64,000 nucleotides of DNA from Rubrivirga marina (lineage in GTDB: Bacteria; Bacteroidota; Rhodothermia; Rhodothermales; Rubricoccaceae): NCBI RefSeq assembly GCF_002283365.1, contig NZ_MQWD01000001.1, positions 993,694 to 1,057,693 on the forward strand. The letters run 5' to 3'. The stretch's first letter is position 1; the number at the start of each line of letters is the position of its first letter. The notes beneath the pieces were generated by a model. That model did no database searches. It saw nothing but the letters and a program-made list of their open reading frames with translations, and was not told the origin of the DNA. Shown here one piece after another: positions 3,189 to 64,000 of the stretch. Both the position numbers and the translations under genes were made by a program.

Positions 3189-3196
3189 AAGCGCTT
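3189..3196. promoter_or_regulatory. AAGCGCTT box upstream of secreted esterase
   Basis: Palindromic octamer within GAAAGCGCTTGC, 48 bases before the esterase start. The same octamer occurs before csbD and three times at 62.6 kb. The core resembles operators of LacI-family repressors, but no such regulator is encoded here. Confidence 0.35.
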
Positions 3197-3243: not shown

Positions 3244-5736
3244 ATGTCCATGCGGTTCGCTCTCTTCGCCGTCGCTCTTCTCGCCACCGTCGGCACGGCG
3301 TCCGCTCAGTCCGAGCGGTTCGAGCGGCTCGAACGGACCTCGAACGGTGTCACCATCACGTACGGTCTGTTCGTGCCGGAGGACTACGACCCGACCGTCG
3401 CGTACCCGCTCGTGATGGCCCTCCACGGCGCCGGCGAGCGCGGCTCCGACTACCGCAACCTGACCGTCGGCGACGCCGCGACGAACGGGCTCACGACCTG
3501 GGCCACGCCTCAGGTCCAGGACGAACACCCCGCGTTCGTCCTCGCCCCGCAGGTCCCGTCGGACCGCCGCTGGAGCGCCGAGACGGACCCCGACCAGTCT
3601 GACCTCACGGCCGTCCAACTCACGACGCTGGAGATCCTGGAGTCCGTCGAGGCCGAGTACTCCATCGACCCGGACCGGATCTACGTTGCTGGCCTGTCGA
3701 TGGGCGGGCACGGGACGTGGGACTTCGTGTCTCGCCTCCCCGGCCGGTTCGCCGCCGCCGTCCCGATGAGCGGCGAGGGCTTCCCGTCCCAGGCCGAGAC
3801 GCTGCTCCACCTCCCGATCTGGGCGTTCACCGGCGAGTCGGACACGGTCGTTCCGCCGGGCGAGACGCGCCGCGTGATCCAGCGGCTCGAAGACCTCGGC
3901 CGAGACGTGATCTACACGCACTGCCGCCGGTCGCCGATTGGCGCGCGGGCCTACGGCTGCCCCGGATACATCGGCACCGACTCCCTCGCGGCGGCCCTCG
4001 ACGCCCACGCCGACCTGATCTACTGGAGCGAACCGAGCGTCGGGCACGGGCCGTGGGGGCCGTGGTTCCGAAACGGGTTGATGCAGGACTGGCTGTTCTC
4101 GAAGGTCCGCCAGGACCCCGACGCCGTGACGATCACCGCGCCCGCCTCGGGCGCGCGCTGGGCCGGGACGGAGACGGTCACCTGGACCACGACGCGCTCG
4201 ACGGCCGACGTCGTCGAAGTGTGGCTCAACCGGACCGACGACCCCGCCAGTTGGCAGAAGCTGGGCGAGGCGCCCATCGCCGCCGGCACGTTCGAGGTCG
4301 ACACCGAGGCGGCCGAGGACGCCGCCCGGGCCCGCGTCCGCCTCTGGGTGCGGAACGCGGACGGGCGGATCGCTGGCCGGGCCACGAGCGCGCCGTTCGC
4401 CCTCGACAACCCCGGGGACGCGTCGCCGGAGCTGACGCTCCAGGCCGAGGGCCTCCGCTTCGACCCGCGCCTCGGCGGCACGGAGTACACGCTCTCGTTC
4501 CTCGCCGCCGACCCCGACGGCGACGCGCTCACGGCCGAGGTCGCCTACAGCCTTGACGGCGGCCAGACCTACACGGTCATCGACACGCCCGACCTCGGCG
4601 CCGGGGCGGAGCAGGCCGTCGAGATCGACCTGGCGGCGCTCCCGAACTCGCGCGAGGCCCGCTTCCTCGTCTCGCTCTCCGACGGCACGACGACCGTTTC
4701 GGAGGAGACGGTCTCGTTCCTCAAACAGACCCCGCGTGACGAGAACACGTTCGTTCAGCGGGTCGCAGGCGACGGCGAGGGCACGGTCACGCTCCACTTC
4801 GTGGACCCGGCGGCGCTCACGGGCCACGAGTACCGGATCTCGATCGCGGTCGCCGAGGACGGGACCAAGACCTACGACGTGACGGACGTGGATGAGGGCG
4901 AGACCGTGCTGGAGGGCGTCCCGCTCTCCGACGGCATCCTCGAGAGCCCCGTGTTCGACGGGATCGCGCTCGTGGTCGAAGACCTGGACGAGGGCCGTGC
5001 GAACCCGGAGCAGACGGGCTGGGTCGCGGGCGACACGGACCTCGGCGTGACCGTCTCCGGCGGCACGGCGCGCGTCGCGATTCTGACCATCGACCTCCTC
5101 GCGACGGAGACCGACTACGAGGTCACGGTCGCCGACGAGGTCGTCGGCCAGTCGACGGCGATCTACACCTTCCCGGCGACCGACGTCCGGTTCACCGTCA
5201 CCGGTGACGGCGGGCAGCCCCGCGAGGTCGCCTTCGACGACGCGGACGATGACGGCCAGCTCGGCGACGGCGACGTGCTCTACATCCTCGAACCCGACGC
5301 CGCGGGCGAGCTGGAACTCGCGTGGAAGCTGGAGTTCGAGGACGGCGAGGTCGCCCCCGAGGCCGGCGACGTGTTCCGCCTCGTCCCGGTCCGCTCGCTC
5401 GGCGCGGGCGACGTGTTCCAATTCGAGGGCCGGTTCAACACGACCGTCGAGGCGTCGCCCGAGACCGCGTCGCTGGAGGCGTTCCCCAACCCCTTCGGCG
5501 ACCGGCTGACGGTGGCTTACCGGCTGGCGGCGCCCGCCGCCGTCCGCGTCGAGGTGTTCGACGCCCTGGGCCGCCGCGTGGCGCTCCTCGTCGATGGCCC
5601 GTCGCCCGCCGACGGGCAGGTGCGGTGGAACGCGCGCGGCGTGGCGAGTGGCGTCTACGTCGTCCGCCTGACGACCGAGGCGGACGGGGCCGCGCCCGCC
5701 TCGGTGCGCCGGTCGGTGGTGCGAGTGGGGCGGTAG
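3244..5736 (+). CDS. secreted alpha/beta-hydrolase esterase with C-terminal sorting domain
   Basis: 830 aa. A signal peptide (about 1-22) is followed by an esterase domain to about 285 of the type seen in predicted phospholipase/carboxylesterases: ALHGAGERGSDYRN (oxyanion region), GLSMGGHGTWD with nucleophile Ser152, GESDTVVPP (probable Asp) and SVGHGPW (probable His). The middle 290-740 looks like Ig/FnIII-type beta modules (TAPASGARWAGTETVTW). The last 85 residues (FPNPFGDRLTVAYRL ... GVYVVRLTT) form a type A sorting domain that directs export by type IX secretion in Bacteroidota. The substrate, perhaps a polysaccharide ester, is unknown. An ATG six bases downstream is an alternative start. 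Confidence 0.85.
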   Translation: MSMRFALFAVALLATVGTASAQSERFERLERTSNGVTITYGLFVPEDYDPTVAYPLVMALHGAGERGSDYRNLTVGDAATNGLTTWATPQVQDEHPAFVLAPQVPSDRRWSAETDPDQSDLTAVQLTTLEILESVEAEYSIDPDRIYVAGLSMGGHGTWDFVSRLPGRFAAAVPMSGEGFPSQAETLLHLPIWAFTGESDTVVPPGETRRVIQRLEDLGRDVIYTHCRRSPIGARAYGCPGYIGTDSLAAALDAHADLIYWSEPSVGHGPWGPWFRNGLMQDWLFSKVRQDPDAVTITAPASGARWAGTETVTWTTTRSTADVVEVWLNRTDDPASWQKLGEAPIAAGTFEVDTEAAEDAARARVRLWVRNADGRIAGRATSAPFALDNPGDASPELTLQAEGLRFDPRLGGTEYTLSFLAADPDGDALTAEVAYSLDGGQTYTVIDTPDLGAGAEQAVEIDLAALPNSREARFLVSLSDGTTTVSEETVSFLKQTPRDENTFVQRVAGDGEGTVTLHFVDPAALTGHEYRISIAVAEDGTKTYDVTDVDEGETVLEGVPLSDGILESPVFDGIALVVEDLDEGRANPEQTGWVAGDTDLGVTVSGGTARVAILTIDLLATETDYEVTVADEVVGQSTAIYTFPATDVRFTVTGDGGQPREVAFDDADDDGQLGDGDVLYILEPDAAGELELAWKLEFEDGEVAPEAGDVFRLVPVRSLGAGDVFQFEGRFNTTVEASPETASLEAFPNPFGDRLTVAYRLAAPAAVRVEVFDALGRRVALLVDGPSPADGQVRWNARGVASGVYVVRLTTEADGAAPASVRRSVVRVGR

Positions 5737-15508: not shown

Positions 15509-15703
15509 CTACTTGACGATCAGCTTCTTGATCCGCTTCTCGTCGGCCTTATCCACCAGCGTCGTCTCGCGGAGGTCTCGCTTCCGCTTCGGCGACTTCT
15601 TGGTCAGGATGTGGCTCGCGAACGCCTTCTTGCGCTTGACGCGACCCGTCCCGGTCAGCGAGAAGCGCTTCTTGGCGCCGCTGTTCGACTTCATCTTCGG
15701 CAT
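15509..15703 (-). CDS. rpmI: 50S ribosomal protein L35
   Basis: 64 aa. [20 protein letters not shown] at the start and a Lys/Arg-rich C-terminus are diagnostic. The ATG at 15703 fits the family; longer in-frame starts lack similarity. It lies between infC (201 bases upstream) and rplT (94 bases downstream), so a leader for L20 control could be present before it, though none was identified. Confidence 0.97.
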
Positions 15704-59356: not shown

Positions 59357-59444
59357 AGGGAGGCGGCCGCAGGACGCGCCCGTCGGGTTCGTCCATTCGA
59401 TAGAGGATGCGGTGTACGTTCTGGGCCGGAACCGCTTCCCATCT

Positions 59445-60974
59445 ATGCGCCCCCTCCTCCTCGTCGCGGCCGTCCTCGCCGCCTCCGCCAGCGCGCAGCC
59501 CGACCTCGGGGCGTTCACGGCTCACGCCGACGTTGGCGACGTCCGGACGCCCGGGACGGTCGCCTACAGCCCGGCCTCCGCGACGTACACGATCTCGGGG
59601 TCGGGCACCAACATGTGGGCCACGAGCGACGAGTTCCACCTCGTCTACCGGCGGATGACGGGCGACTTCGTCCTCACCGCCGACATGGCGTTCGTGGGCG
59701 AGGGCGTCGACCCCCACCGGAAGATCGGCTGGATCGCCCGCGCGTCGCTCGATCCGGGGGCGCCGTACGTCGACGCCGCGCTCCACGGCGACGGGCTCAT
59801 GTCGCTCCAGTACCGGGCCGCCGCCGGCGACTCGACGGTCCAGGTCGTGAGCGACTCGTCGGCGAGCACGGTCCGGCTGGCGCGGCGCGGCGGCGTGTAC
59901 TCGATGTCGGTGGCGAGGGCCGGCGAGCCGTTCACGACGGTCGAGCTGACCGAGCCGGTCGACCTCGGCGACGAGGTGCTCGTGGGGTTGTTCGTCTGCG
60001 CCCACAACCCGGACGTGGTCGAGACGGCGGTCTTCTCGAACGTCCGCGTGGCGGTCCCGGTCACGTCCGGCATCGGCGACCTCGTCCCCGCCGACGCCGA
60101 GGTGGAGGTCCTCGCCGAGGGGTTCACGTGGTCGGAAGGGCCCGTGTGGCGCCCGGCCGAGGGCGACCTCCTGTTTTCGGACGTCCCCGAGAACGTGGTC
60201 TACCGCTGGTCCGAGAGCGACGGCCTGTCCGCCTTCCTCCGCCCCGCCAGCCGCGCGTTCGGGAGCGCGACGCCCGGCGAGGCGGGCAGCAACGGGCTGA
60301 TCCTCGACGCCGACGGCCGCCTGCTCCTGGCCGAGCACGGGACGCGCGCCGTGATGCGCCTCGGCGACCGCTTCGTCCGCGACACGCTGGCGGCGCGCTA
60401 CGACGGGCGCCGGCTCAACAGCCCAAACGACCTCGTGCTCCACTCGTCGGGCGCCCTGTTCTTTACCGACCCCCCGTACGGGCTGGCCGGTCAGGACGGG
60501 TCGCCGCAGAAGGAGCTCCCGTTCAACGGCGTCTACCGCCTCGACTCGGACGGGACGGTCACGCTCATCGATGACGGCCTCTCGCGGCCCAACGGGATCG
60601 TCCTGTCGCCCGACGAGCGGACGCTGCTCGTGGCGAACTCGGACCCCGCGCGGGCGATCTGGATGGCGTACCCGGTCGCCGAGGACGGCTCGGTCGGGGA
60701 GGGGACGGTCCTGTTCGACGCGACCGAGTGGGTGGGCCCCGACCGGCCCGGCCTCCCGGACGGGATGGCCGTCGACGCAGACGGGAACGTGTTCGCGACG
60801 GGGCCGGGCGGCGTCCTCGTGTTCTCGGCCGCGGGCGAGTACCTCGGCACGATCGAGACGGAGAAGGCGACGGCCAACGTGGCCTTTGGCGACGCGGACG
60901 GCCGGGCGCTCTACCTCACGTCCAGCGACCAACTCCTCCGGCTCCGCGTCGCCACGCGAGGGCTCGGGTTTTGA
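59445..60974 (+). CDS. exported SMP-30/gluconolactonase-like protein
   Basis: 509 aa. Signal peptide (1-17). Residues 20-205 are a DUF1349/LamG-like beta sandwich (MWATSDEFHLVYRRMTGDFVLTADM). Residues 220-509 are a six-bladed SMP-30 propeller: EGFTWSEGPVW with metal Glu, LNSPNDLVLHSSGALFFTDPPYG and RPNGIVLSPDERTLLVANSD with Asn/Asp ligands, and GLPDGMAVDADGNVFATG. It should open sugar lactones such as gluconolactone in the periplasm. The GntP permease gene follows at 108 bases, supporting that. Confidence 0.9.
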   Translation: MRPLLLVAAVLAASASAQPDLGAFTAHADVGDVRTPGTVAYSPASATYTISGSGTNMWATSDEFHLVYRRMTGDFVLTADMAFVGEGVDPHRKIGWIARASLDPGAPYVDAALHGDGLMSLQYRAAAGDSTVQVVSDSSASTVRLARRGGVYSMSVARAGEPFTTVELTEPVDLGDEVLVGLFVCAHNPDVVETAVFSNVRVAVPVTSGIGDLVPADAEVEVLAEGFTWSEGPVWRPAEGDLLFSDVPENVVYRWSESDGLSAFLRPASRAFGSATPGEAGSNGLILDADGRLLLAEHGTRAVMRLGDRFVRDTLAARYDGRRLNSPNDLVLHSSGALFFTDPPYGLAGQDGSPQKELPFNGVYRLDSDGTVTLIDDGLSRPNGIVLSPDERTLLVANSDPARAIWMAYPVAEDGSVGEGTVLFDATEWVGPDRPGLPDGMAVDADGNVFATGPGGVLVFSAAGEYLGTIETEKATANVAFGDADGRALYLTSSDQLLRLRVATRGLGF

Positions 60975-61020
60975 CAGCGTTCTCGCCTCCGACCCGAGCG
61001 ACCGCGGCGACCGACCCGGC

Positions 61021-61040
61021 CCGCCTCGGCGCCGAGGCGG
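61021..61040. repeat. perfect GCCTCGG palindrome
   Basis: CCGCCTCGGCGCCGAGGCGG between the gluconolactonase and gntP genes, 43 bases before the gntP start. Confidence 0.8.
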
Positions 61041-61082
61041 GGGGAGCCGGCCGGCTGTGATCAAACCGCTCCCGTTCGCTCC

Positions 61083-62429
61083 ATGCACCCGCTCCTGATC
61101 CTGGCCGTCGGCATGGCGACGGTGCTCGGGCTGATCGTCGCTGCGCGCGTCCACGCGTTCCTGGCGCTGCTGGCGGCGGCGCTCGTCGTGAGTCTGCTCG
61201 CTGGCGGGGCGACCGGCGAGGCCGTCACGCGTGTGGCCGAGGCGTTCGGGGCGACGGCGGCGAGCGTCGGCATCGTGATCGCGTTCGCGGCCGTCATCGG
61301 GAAGGCCATGACCGACAGCGGCGCGGCCGACCGGATCGTCCGCTCGATGACGGGGACCGCCGGCGACGGGCGCGTGGCGCCGGCCCTCGCCGGGAGCGGG
61401 GCCATCCTCTCGATCCCGGTCTTCTTCGACACGGTCTTCTACCTCCTCGTGCCGCTCGCGCGGTCGGCCGCGCGGGCGTCGGGGCGGCGCTACCTCCGCT
61501 ATCTCCTGGCCGTCGCCGGCGGCGCCGTCGTGACGCACGCGCTCGTGCCCCCGACGCCCGGCCCGTTCGTGACGGCCGCCGAGCTCGGCGTCGACCTCGG
61601 CACGATGATGATCGTGGGCCTCGTGATCGCCGTCCCGTGCACCGCCTCGGTCCTCCTCTTCGCCAAGTGGGCCGACGACCGGGTGCCTGTCGAGCTGCCC
61701 GACCACGACGACCCGGCCGCCGCCGGCGTCCCCGAGGTGGAGGCGCCGCCACCCGTCCTCCCCGGCCTCGGCGCGTCGTTGGCCCCCATCGTCCTGCCCG
61801 TCGTGCTCATCACGGCGGCGACGATCGCGAACGCGCTCGAGCGGCCCCTTGCGTGGCTCGACGCGCTCGGCAACCCGAACCTCGCGCTCGGGCTGGCGAC
61901 CGTCGCCGCGCTCGGGGTCTACGTCCGCCAGCGGCGGCCGAGCCGCGACGACGTGGCCGAGGCGGTCGAGGAGGCGCTGATGTCGGCCGGCGTCATCATC
62001 CTCATCACGGCGGCCGGCGGGGCGTTCGGGGCGATGCTGCGCGAGGCCGGCGTCGGCGACGTCCTGGCGGCGCTGGCGGGCGGCGGAGCGGGCGGGTTCG
62101 CGCTCCTGGGCCTCGCCTTCGGCACGGCCAGCCTCCTGAAGATCGCGCAGGGCTCCTCGACGGTCGCCATGATCACGACGGTCGGGCTCGTCGGCGCGGC
62201 CGTGGCCGGCGCCGACCTCCCGTTCCACCCGGTCTACCTCGCGACGGCGATCGCGTCGGGCTCGCTCGTCGGCTCGTGGATGAACGACAGCGGCTTCTGG
62301 ATCTTCGCCAAGATGGGCGGCCTCTCGGAGGTCGAGACGCTCCGGACGTGGACGCCGCTGCTGGCCGTCGTCGGGCTCGTGGCGTTCGCGATGACGCTCG
62401 TGCTCGCGCTTGCGGTGCCGCTCGTCTAG
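61083..62429 (+). CDS. GntP-family gluconate permease
   Basis: 448 aa with 12-14 membrane helices. SIPVFFDTVFYLLVPLARS, VPPTPGPFVTAAELGVDLG and GSLVGSWMNDSGFWIF are the GntP family signatures. It imports gluconate or a related sugar acid. Upstream lies a predicted periplasmic lactonase that would make such an acid. Its stop overlaps a tiny convergent ORF through CTAG. Confidence 0.95.
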   Translation: MHPLLILAVGMATVLGLIVAARVHAFLALLAAALVVSLLAGGATGEAVTRVAEAFGATAASVGIVIAFAAVIGKAMTDSGAADRIVRSMTGTAGDGRVAPALAGSGAILSIPVFFDTVFYLLVPLARSAARASGRRYLRYLLAVAGGAVVTHALVPPTPGPFVTAAELGVDLGTMMIVGLVIAVPCTASVLLFAKWADDRVPVELPDHDDPAAAGVPEVEAPPPVLPGLGASLAPIVLPVVLITAATIANALERPLAWLDALGNPNLALGLATVAALGVYVRQRRPSRDDVAEAVEEALMSAGVIILITAAGGAFGAMLREAGVGDVLAALAGGGAGGFALLGLAFGTASLLKIAQGSSTVAMITTVGLVGAAVAGADLPFHPVYLATAIASGSLVGSWMNDSGFWIFAKMGGLSEVETLRTWTPLLAVVGLVAFAMTLVLALAVPLV

Positions 62430-62512
62430 CGGGCGGGCAGAGAGCGGGTCACGGTCTGGACGACGTGGCGGAGCCAGTCGCTGAGGGGGACGGGGGTCAT
62501 GGAGACGAACAT
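62426..62512 (-). CDS. possible 28-aa peptide downstream of AAGCGCTT array
   Basis: ATG-started ORF (MFVSMTPVPLSDWLRHVVQT, then a basic end). Not hydrophobic enough for a membrane helix; may be amphipathic. Its stop shares CTAG with gntP, as at two convergent pairs of larger genes, and the three AAGCGCTT boxes lie 73-122 bases upstream on its strand. Coding status is unproven. Confidence 0.35.
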   Translation of the reverse strand: MFVSMTPVPLSDWLRHVVQTVTRSLPAR

Positions 62513-62584
62513 GGCGGTGGGAGCTGGGGGACGGTCACAGAGTAGGGCCTGGACCGGCCGTATCAGATCACCGAAACGCCACCT

Positions 62585-62634
62585 AAGCGCTTCCGGCACA
62601 ACGGGAAGCGCTTTTTGCCCGAGGCGAAGCGCTT
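62585..62634. promoter_or_regulatory. three AAGCGCTT boxes at 21-bp spacing
   Basis: AAGCGCTT occurs at 62585, 62606 and 62627, exactly 21 bases apart, so each palindromic octamer lies on the same face of the helix two turns from the next. The only gene downstream is the 28-aa ORF on the minus strand; otherwise the gap lies between convergent genes. The core resembles LacI-family operators. Confidence 0.55.
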
Positions 62635-62675
62635 TCCTCCACGAACCCTCCACGGGCCATTCGCTGGCCCTCCCC

Positions 62676-62691
62676 GCCTCGGTGTCGAGGC
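62676..62691. repeat. degenerate GCCTCGG palindrome
   Basis: GCCTCG-GTGT-CGAGGC just after the DUF2237 stop on the minus strand. Confidence 0.5.
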
Positions 62692-62695
62692 CGGC

Positions 62696-63067
62696 CTACT
62701 GGGCCTGGTGCTGGCGGAGGTCGTCGAGCGAGACCACGTCGAGCGCCCGGGCGTGCGTCGCCTCCAGCACGACGGGCGGAGCCACCCCGGCCTCGAAGGC
62801 CTCGCGCCACCGGCTCACGCAGAGGCACCACCGGTCGCCGGGGGCGAGGCCGGGAAAGCGCATCTCGGGCCGCGGCCTCGAGAGGTCGTTGCCGCGGGCC
62901 CGGGTAAAGTCGAGAAACTCCTCCGTCATCACGGCGCAGACGACGTGCGTGCCGAGGTCGTCGGGGCCGGTCTCGCAGCAGCCGGACCGGTAGAACCCCG
63001 TGAGCGGATCGCGGCCGCAGTCCTGGAGCTCGCCGCCGAGGACGTTCGTGAGAGGGACGACTTGCAT
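62696..63067 (-). CDS. DUF2237 protein
   Basis: 123 aa. NVLGGELQDCGRDPLTGFYRSGCCETGPDDLGTHVVCAVMTEEFL and GDRWCLCVSRWREAFEAGVAPPVVLEATHARAL are the full DUF2237 pattern, with conserved cysteines (DCG, GCC, WCLC). A small conserved soluble protein of unknown function, often annotated as hypothetical in proteobacteria and Bacteroidota. Confidence 0.95.
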   Translation of the reverse strand: MQVVPLTNVLGGELQDCGRDPLTGFYRSGCCETGPDDLGTHVVCAVMTEEFLDFTRARGNDLSRPRPEMRFPGLAPGDRWCLCVSRWREAFEAGVAPPVVLEATHARALDVVSLDDLRQHQAQ

Positions 63068-63202
63068 GGGGCCGGTCGGAGTGTGCGCCCTGGCAACGGA
63101 CGCGAGCGGGAGTCGGGTCCTCCGGGACGGCCTGAACGCGAGCGACAGACGGAACGGCTCCGGACGCTCGGCTCGTTCGCACGGCCCACCTGTCCCATCC
63201 GC

Positions 63203-63919
63203 ATGGCTGAAAAAACGATCGACGACTGGCTCGACGAGACCTCCATCGACGCGTCCGACATCCCGGACCACTATCCCGACGACTACACCGACCCCGAGCT
63301 CCGGTGGCGGCTCAAGGAGGCCATCCAGGCGTCCGGGAAGGGCGGCGACGAGGGGGAGTGGTCGGCCCGGAAGGCGCAACTCCTCACGCAGGCGTACGAG
63401 AAGCGCGGCGGCAGCTACATCGGCGAGAAGTCCGAGCGCCAGACGAGCCTCGAGGACTGGACGGAGCAAGACTGGCAAACGGCCGACGGCTCGGCCGACG
63501 CGGCCTCGGGCGACCACATGGACCGCTACCTCCCGCGCGACGCCTGGGCCCTCCTCTCCGAGTCCGCCCGGAATGAGGCCGAGCGGACCAAAGAGCGGGC
63601 CGACGACGCCGGCCGCCAGGTGGCCGACTGGCCGGAGGCCGTCCGCCGCGTCATGGCGGAGCTCGGCTACGCCGACGGCGGCGAGGGCCTGACCAAAGAG
63701 ATGCTCTACGACCGAGCCCAAGAGCTCGACGTCGAGGGCCGCTCCGACATGACCAAGGGCGAACTGAAGGCGGCCATCCTCGACGCCTATCGGTCCGAGC
63801 ACGGCGAGCCGACCAAGGACGAGCTGATGACGCGCGCTCAGGCCCTCGACGTCCACGGGCGCAGCGACATGACCAAGAGCGAGCTGCAGGACGCCCTCGA
63901 CGGCGCCACCGACCGCTGA
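63203..63919 (+). CDS. DUF5872-like protein with two SAP/Rho-N-like repeats
   Basis: 238 aa, acidic. Residues 1-110 (WRLKEAIQASGKGGDEGEWSARKAQLL, then KRGGSYIGEKSERQTSLEDWTEQDWQT) fit the small DUF5872 domain. Residues 155-238 hold two near-identical units, MLYDRAQELDVEGRSDMTKGEL and LMTRAQALDVHGRSDMTKSEL, each a helix-turn-helix of SAP or Rho-N type, folds that bind nucleic acid. A DNA- or RNA-associated role is inferred. Confidence 0.8.
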   Translation: MAEKTIDDWLDETSIDASDIPDHYPDDYTDPELRWRLKEAIQASGKGGDEGEWSARKAQLLTQAYEKRGGSYIGEKSERQTSLEDWTEQDWQTADGSADAASGDHMDRYLPRDAWALLSESARNEAERTKERADDAGRQVADWPEAVRRVMAELGYADGGEGLTKEMLYDRAQELDVEGRSDMTKGELKAAILDAYRSEHGEPTKDELMTRAQALDVHGRSDMTKSELQDALDGATDR

Positions 63920-63946
63920 CTCGGCCCGCCGCGGTGGGACTCCCAC

Positions 63947-64000
63947 ATGCCCGACCAACCCGCCCTCCTCGTCCACGCCGACTGGAGCACGGCCGCGCGC
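63947..64000 (+). CDS. start of an unidentified gene (cut by window end)
   Basis: An ATG opens a frame of 18 codons (MPDQPALLVHADWSTAAR) running off the window, 27 bases after the previous stop. High third-position GC fits coding sequence. HADWS near the N-terminus is reminiscent of DUF429-like nuclease-fold proteins, but this is too little to name it. Confidence 0.55.
   Translation, partial: MPDQPALLVHADWSTAAR

Follow-up and report, generated by a model that had tools for sequence, protein, structure and literature searches.

The window analysed here is a 64,000-nucleotide stretch of the Rubrivirga marina genome, with a GC content of 73% and 86% of its bases coding. The feature under study lies in the gap between two convergent genes: one called on the forward strand for a GntP-family permease (61083..62429; PF02447, E 2.7e-91), and one called on the reverse strand for a DUF2237 protein (62696..63067; PF09996, E 3.2e-56). 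Upstream of gntP, on the forward strand, is a gene for an SMP-30/gluconolactonase-like protein (59445..60974; PF08450, E 6.7e-45). A search of the genome contigs for the permease returned distant relatives only, and an Rfam scan of the window gave no matches. The gap itself contains a hairpin (CCCGCCTCGG..CGAGGC, 62673..62694) that is also present in two congeners, G001 and G002. Over the interval 62655-62694 two hairpins can be drawn, GGCCATTCGCTGGCC and GCCTCGGTGTCGAGGC. Sequences close to the right one are numerous in the genus, and it is probably a common form of terminator that lacks a T run.

Between the gntP stop and the shared hairpin, the window genome carries a segment of about 240 bp (62430..62672, right edge approximate) that is absent from G001 and G002, where the gntP and DUF2237 stops are separated by little more than the hairpin (loci L120 and L121). 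This comparison covers two congeners and rests on reading the gap sequences, as automatic alignment placed the ends poorly. Taken at face value, it means that the segment was either gained by the lineage of the window genome or lost by its relatives. We found no copy of the DNA elsewhere in the genome or in 39 relatives, except for its hairpin-like right end. A mobile element was considered and rejected, because a repeat search found no terminal inverted repeats at the ends of the segment, and no other copies were found. The segment contains three copies of a palindromic octamer and most of a 28-codon ORF on the minus strand (MFVSMTPVPLSDWLRHVVQTVTRSLPAR; 62426..62512 including the stop), whose TAG stop shares the sequence CTAG with the stop of gntP.

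The three octamers are exact copies of AAGCGCTT, at 62585-62592, 62606-62613 and 62627-62634. Their starts are separated by 21 and again by 21 bp, precisely as the sequence-only reading had described. In a weight matrix of the motif, the first copy (CCT-AAGCGCTT-CCG) scores 16.0, the second (GGG-AAGCGCTT-TTT) 17.0 and the third (GCG-AAGCGCTT-TCC) 16.5, which correspond to about the 5th, 21st and 7th percentiles of the other intergenic sites. All three thus fall within about the bottom 20% of the motif sites; the array is three weak sites in phase, not one strong site. The 13-bp spacers share 6, 2 and 4 matches with one another, against a mean of 3.8 for random intergenic 13-mers. Because the spacers are no more alike than chance, there is no sign of a plain tandem duplication, and we rejected this as the origin of the array. 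A search of 394 other genomes of the phylum found no spaced triple of this kind (spacers of 8-28 bp). Three other loci of the window genome have pairs of AAGCGCTT, spaced 28, 30 and 14 bp from start to start, which indicates that the 21-bp spacing is not a general rule. Each component of the array is of a familiar type, and what is unusual is the arrangement.

The window contains six copies of AAGCGCTT, against 0.38 expected from dinucleotide shuffles (0 of 100 shuffles reached six) and 0.28 expected from a second-order model. The octamer had been predicted to be rare in 64 kb of such DNA, and the excess over expectation is real. Two of the copies outside the array had also been noticed before, at 3189 and 23562, and they do lie in front of genes: 47 bp before the gene at 3244-5736 and 38 bp before csbD, respectively. 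A third copy outside the array (15663-15670), absent from the sequence-only reading, falls within the coding sequence of ribosomal protein L35 and is probably a coding chance. A genome-wide search, which that reading had proposed, returned 86 copies of AAGCGCTT in 4.98 Mb, dispersed like a set of operators, compared with 54 for the reversed word. For AAGCGCTTCC, there were 67 matches genome-wide and 12 for the word read backwards.

To place these sites, we classified 76 of the 86 genomic copies from the surrounding DNA, with genes called by a home-made codon-usage script. Sixty-one of the 76 are intergenic, even though coding sequence fills 86% of the window, and nearly all of these lie on the promoter side of a gene, and the consensus of these 61 sites is (Y)GGAAGCGCTTCC(R), of which AAGCGCTT forms the core. 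The 58 intergenic copies outside the array are distributed over divergent gaps (25), tandem gaps (32) and one fragment edge, with none in a convergent gap. Since convergent gaps make up 11% of the intergenic bases in the window, about six of these 58 would be expected in such gaps by chance, and their absence argues that the motif keeps to promoter sides. Among the 76 copies examined, the array is the only intergenic occurrence of AAGCGCTT in a convergent gap. Most LacI-family motifs are palindromes of even length centred on CG, and they are mostly found 30-140 bp upstream of gene starts (PMC4052901). The motif described here is likewise an even palindrome with a central CG, and the set as a whole lies upstream of gene starts; the same can be said of the array only if the 28-codon ORF, or an RNA, is its target.

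The genes next to the sites are ones of carbon and nitrogen metabolism, and include those for sodium-solute symporters, SusC-type TonB receptors, DctP, an ammonium transporter (Amt), GH10, GH43 and GH5 hydrolases, altronate/galactarate dehydratase, an FGGY kinase, PEP carboxylase, PEPCK, glutamate dehydrogenase, acyl-CoA dehydrogenases and a carboxyl transferase. As judged from these assignments, the neighbour set is the profile of a putative global carbon regulon. Several of the sites are conserved at orthologous promoters. The PEPCK site lies 21 bp upstream of the gene in both the window genome and G001, and 15 bp upstream in G003, while both sites at amt, together with their 28-bp spacing, are retained in G002. 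Sites at the promoters of an acyl-CoA dehydrogenase gene, a chorismate mutase/DAHP synthase gene and an EF-G-like gene also have counterparts among the three congeners compared. Over a wider range of 40 relatives, most have more copies of GGAAGCGCTTCC than of the reversed control word. The sequence-only reading had counted a loss of the spacing in relatives against its own proposal. For the array the spacing is indeed not kept, the DNA being private to the window genome, whereas the motif is kept. On these genomes, the array is a private feature of the window genome that appears to be built from a widespread regulatory motif.

Two further observations concern the surroundings of individual sites. 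At L063:447-9713 (G000:C1 ~610846-620112), five copies of AAGCGCTT are found together with a LacI gene, glycoside hydrolase genes, an altronate/galactarate dehydratase gene and a gene for a DctP binding protein, a cluster that looks like a uronate utilisation locus. Palindromes of the form GAAACGTTTC adjoin AAGCGCTT sites in L111 (near 4708) and L088 (near 10594), and are perhaps operators of a second LacI-family regulator.

Which protein would bind such sites? The window genome encodes eight LacI-family proteins. One of them, a CcpA-like protein encoded at L082:3075-4112 (G000:C1 ~2181474-2182511; also seen as L056), has orthologs in G001, G002, G003, G004 and G007. A copy of AAGCGCTT lies 12-40 bp before the start of this gene and of all five orthologous genes. 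In the window genome the site has the form TGTAAGCGCTTACA and stands 12 bp before the start, with the span that includes the site beginning at L082:3055 (~2181454). TGTAAGCGCTTACA fits TGWAANCGNTNWCA, the cre consensus that PMC5263246 quotes for CcpA of B. subtilis. The best solved relative of the L082 protein is CcpA (E 4e-44), with a match in the ATVSR region of the recognition helix. By the NCBIfam equivalog model for CcpA (TIGR01481), the protein is not a CcpA ortholog: it reaches 174 bits where the cut-off is 442, and it does better with the models for RbsR and CytR. An HPr is present in the genome and has the regulatory serine, in the sequence NGKSIIGVM. The position aligned to Arg303 of CcpA, a contact with HPr-Ser-P, is Glu in the L082 protein and all five orthologs; this substitution and the low equivalog score make control of the regulator by HPr doubtful. 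In G006, a relative within the family, few sites were seen and no LacI protein was detected, which fits the assignment but is too little to weigh. We infer that the L082 protein likely binds the motif sites, and that it is probably a global carbon regulator for the group. The earlier suggestion of a LacI-type repressor is thus supported as a prediction from the even palindrome, the promoter-proximal sites and the site at the regulator's own gene in six genomes.

The 28-codon ORF had been named as the one possible target of the array, and 72 bp separate its ATG from the nearest octamer, which is upstream. The ORF has a codon score of +0.35 per codon, whereas the frame that precedes the ATG scores -0.58, and its GC3 is 0.96, against 0.62 upstream. 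For reference, genes score 0.47 (sd 0.10), and 78 intergenic short ORFs score -0.46 (sd 0.34), with this ORF the best. A longer minus-strand ORF beginning at the GTG at 62653 was rejected, because the part of it ahead of the internal ATG has a negative codon score. The codon usage of the 28-codon ORF is gene-like, and since an operator placed between convergent genes must act on something, the ORF is plausible as the target. This part of the earlier proposal stands as plausible; set against it, no homolog of the peptide was found in 39 relatives, and no consensus sigma-70 promoter was found in 61000-64000. The best promoter candidate by eye is a poor one, GATACG on the minus strand, 20 bp downstream of copy 1, and no Shine-Dalgarno sequence was seen for the ORF. 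It may also be a chance ORF in a GC-rich stretch. Altogether, a small unit on the minus strand is plausible from its sequence.

The explanation that we favour, and to which we give slightly better than an even chance, is that the array is a phased cluster of LacI-type operators that controls a young minus-strand unit, a peptide and/or an antisense RNA. It draws on the distribution of the motif, its conservation at orthologous promoters, the site at the LacI gene itself, the absence of the segment from the relatives and the codons of the ORF. The segment of about 240 bp would carry three weak-to-moderate operators for the CcpA-like global carbon regulator of the LacI family. A dimer would bind at each palindrome; with two turns from one site to the next, all would sit on one face of the helix, so that neighbours could aid the occupancy of weak sites. 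The bound regulator would control, and most simply repress, a minus-strand promoter situated just downstream. The resulting transcript would encode the 28-residue peptide and, continuing into gntP, would be antisense to the 3' end of its mRNA.

Alternatively, the segment could be a relic, in which a rearrangement brought to the side of gntP the operator region of some larger regulated gene, along with its first 28 codons. The CTAG at the end of gntP would then be a chance stop, and the sites might still bind the regulator while controlling nothing useful. The exact coincidence of the end of the ORF with the gntP stop speaks for this, as do a peptide without homologs and a segment private to the window genome. 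We regard a relic as rather unlikely: neither a donor gene nor a second copy was found in the genome, and with three intact octamers and clean codon usage the event would have to be recent.

Slightly less likely still is that the array acts as RNA, with copies 1 and 2 (or 2 and 3) pairing into a hairpin that would serve gntP as an intrinsic terminator or stabilise the 3' end of its mRNA. Copies 1 and 2 do belong to a perfect 10-bp inverted repeat (AAGCGCTTCC / GGAAGCGCTT, 62585..62613, plus strand) that is followed by TTT, and the predicted stem is stable (-17.7 kcal/mol, z -3.9), with a run of T5 if two T of the stem are counted. The position between convergent genes, beyond the gntP stop, also speaks for this reading, and such a hairpin could be useful to gntP because the insert has shifted the other hairpin about 240 bp away. 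A scan with a terminator consensus gave one weak site. Yet such a stem arises from any pair of palindrome copies whose flanks fit, only three T lie beyond the full stem, and neither an exact octamer nor a third copy would be needed. The hairpin common to the relatives is also still present downstream. What leads us to favour an operator over a terminator is the distribution of the other sites, in which 0 of 58 intergenic copies occupy a convergent gap.

A further reading, that another LacI paralog such as L057 binds the array and regulates gntP by roadblock or by looping to a near-consensus site (GGAACCGCTTCC, 59430-59437, one mismatch) lying a few bases ahead of the gluconolactonase-like gene, is improbable: two AAGCGCTT sites do precede the start of L057 (by 12 and 26 bp), but operators downstream of an operon would be unusual, the two elements lie 3.1 kb apart, and no counterpart of the 59430 site was found in G001 or G002.

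Returning to the phased operator cluster, one can extend it to a new, species-specific unit under carbon control, in which three phased CcpA-like operators would govern a peptide and an antisense RNA, with one or the other of these tuning expression of the transporter; the wider regulon would belong to a global carbon regulator of the LacI family, new to descriptions of this order. We offer this fuller version tentatively and consider it unlikely to hold as a whole. If the small unit is real, it would give a view of a regulatory gene newly arisen, or newly arrived, between two old genes. Whatever its function, the array led to a dispersed and phylogenetically conserved putative regulon with a likely regulator. 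We found no description of such a regulon in this bacterial group in the literature searched; a transcriptome paper on related genera, in the part of it covered here, has LacI genes beside hydrolase clusters and gives no motif (PMC7409140).

Several known systems offer points of comparison. By analogy, the putative unit may resemble a small RNA or peptide gene that stands beside a transporter gene, possibly under a carbon-responsive regulator. SgrS/SgrT of E. coli is a small regulatory unit of this kind that acts on a sugar transporter; there is no sequence relation between the two. The putative regulon resembles those of the global LacI-family regulators of Proteobacteria (PckR, GapR, GluR and FruR/Cra), which also have LacI-type sites dispersed over the promoters of PEPCK and further genes of central carbon metabolism, and for one of which, GapR, autoregulation has been suggested (PMC4052901). 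It differs from them in lineage, in motif and in the set of targets. A further parallel is with CcpA and cre of the Firmicutes, also of the LacI family. Here the consensus has the flanks GG..CC rather than TG..CA, and the candidate regulator departs from CcpA at the Arg303 position and in its equivalog score (174 versus 442 bits). In both, however, the site is an even palindrome of about 14 bp with the core AANCGNTT; the window genome encodes an HPr with the serine region GKSIIGVM, and the candidate binder has CcpA as its nearest solved relative. The sites of both are also dispersed over the promoters of genes for carbon catabolism, transport and central carbon metabolism.
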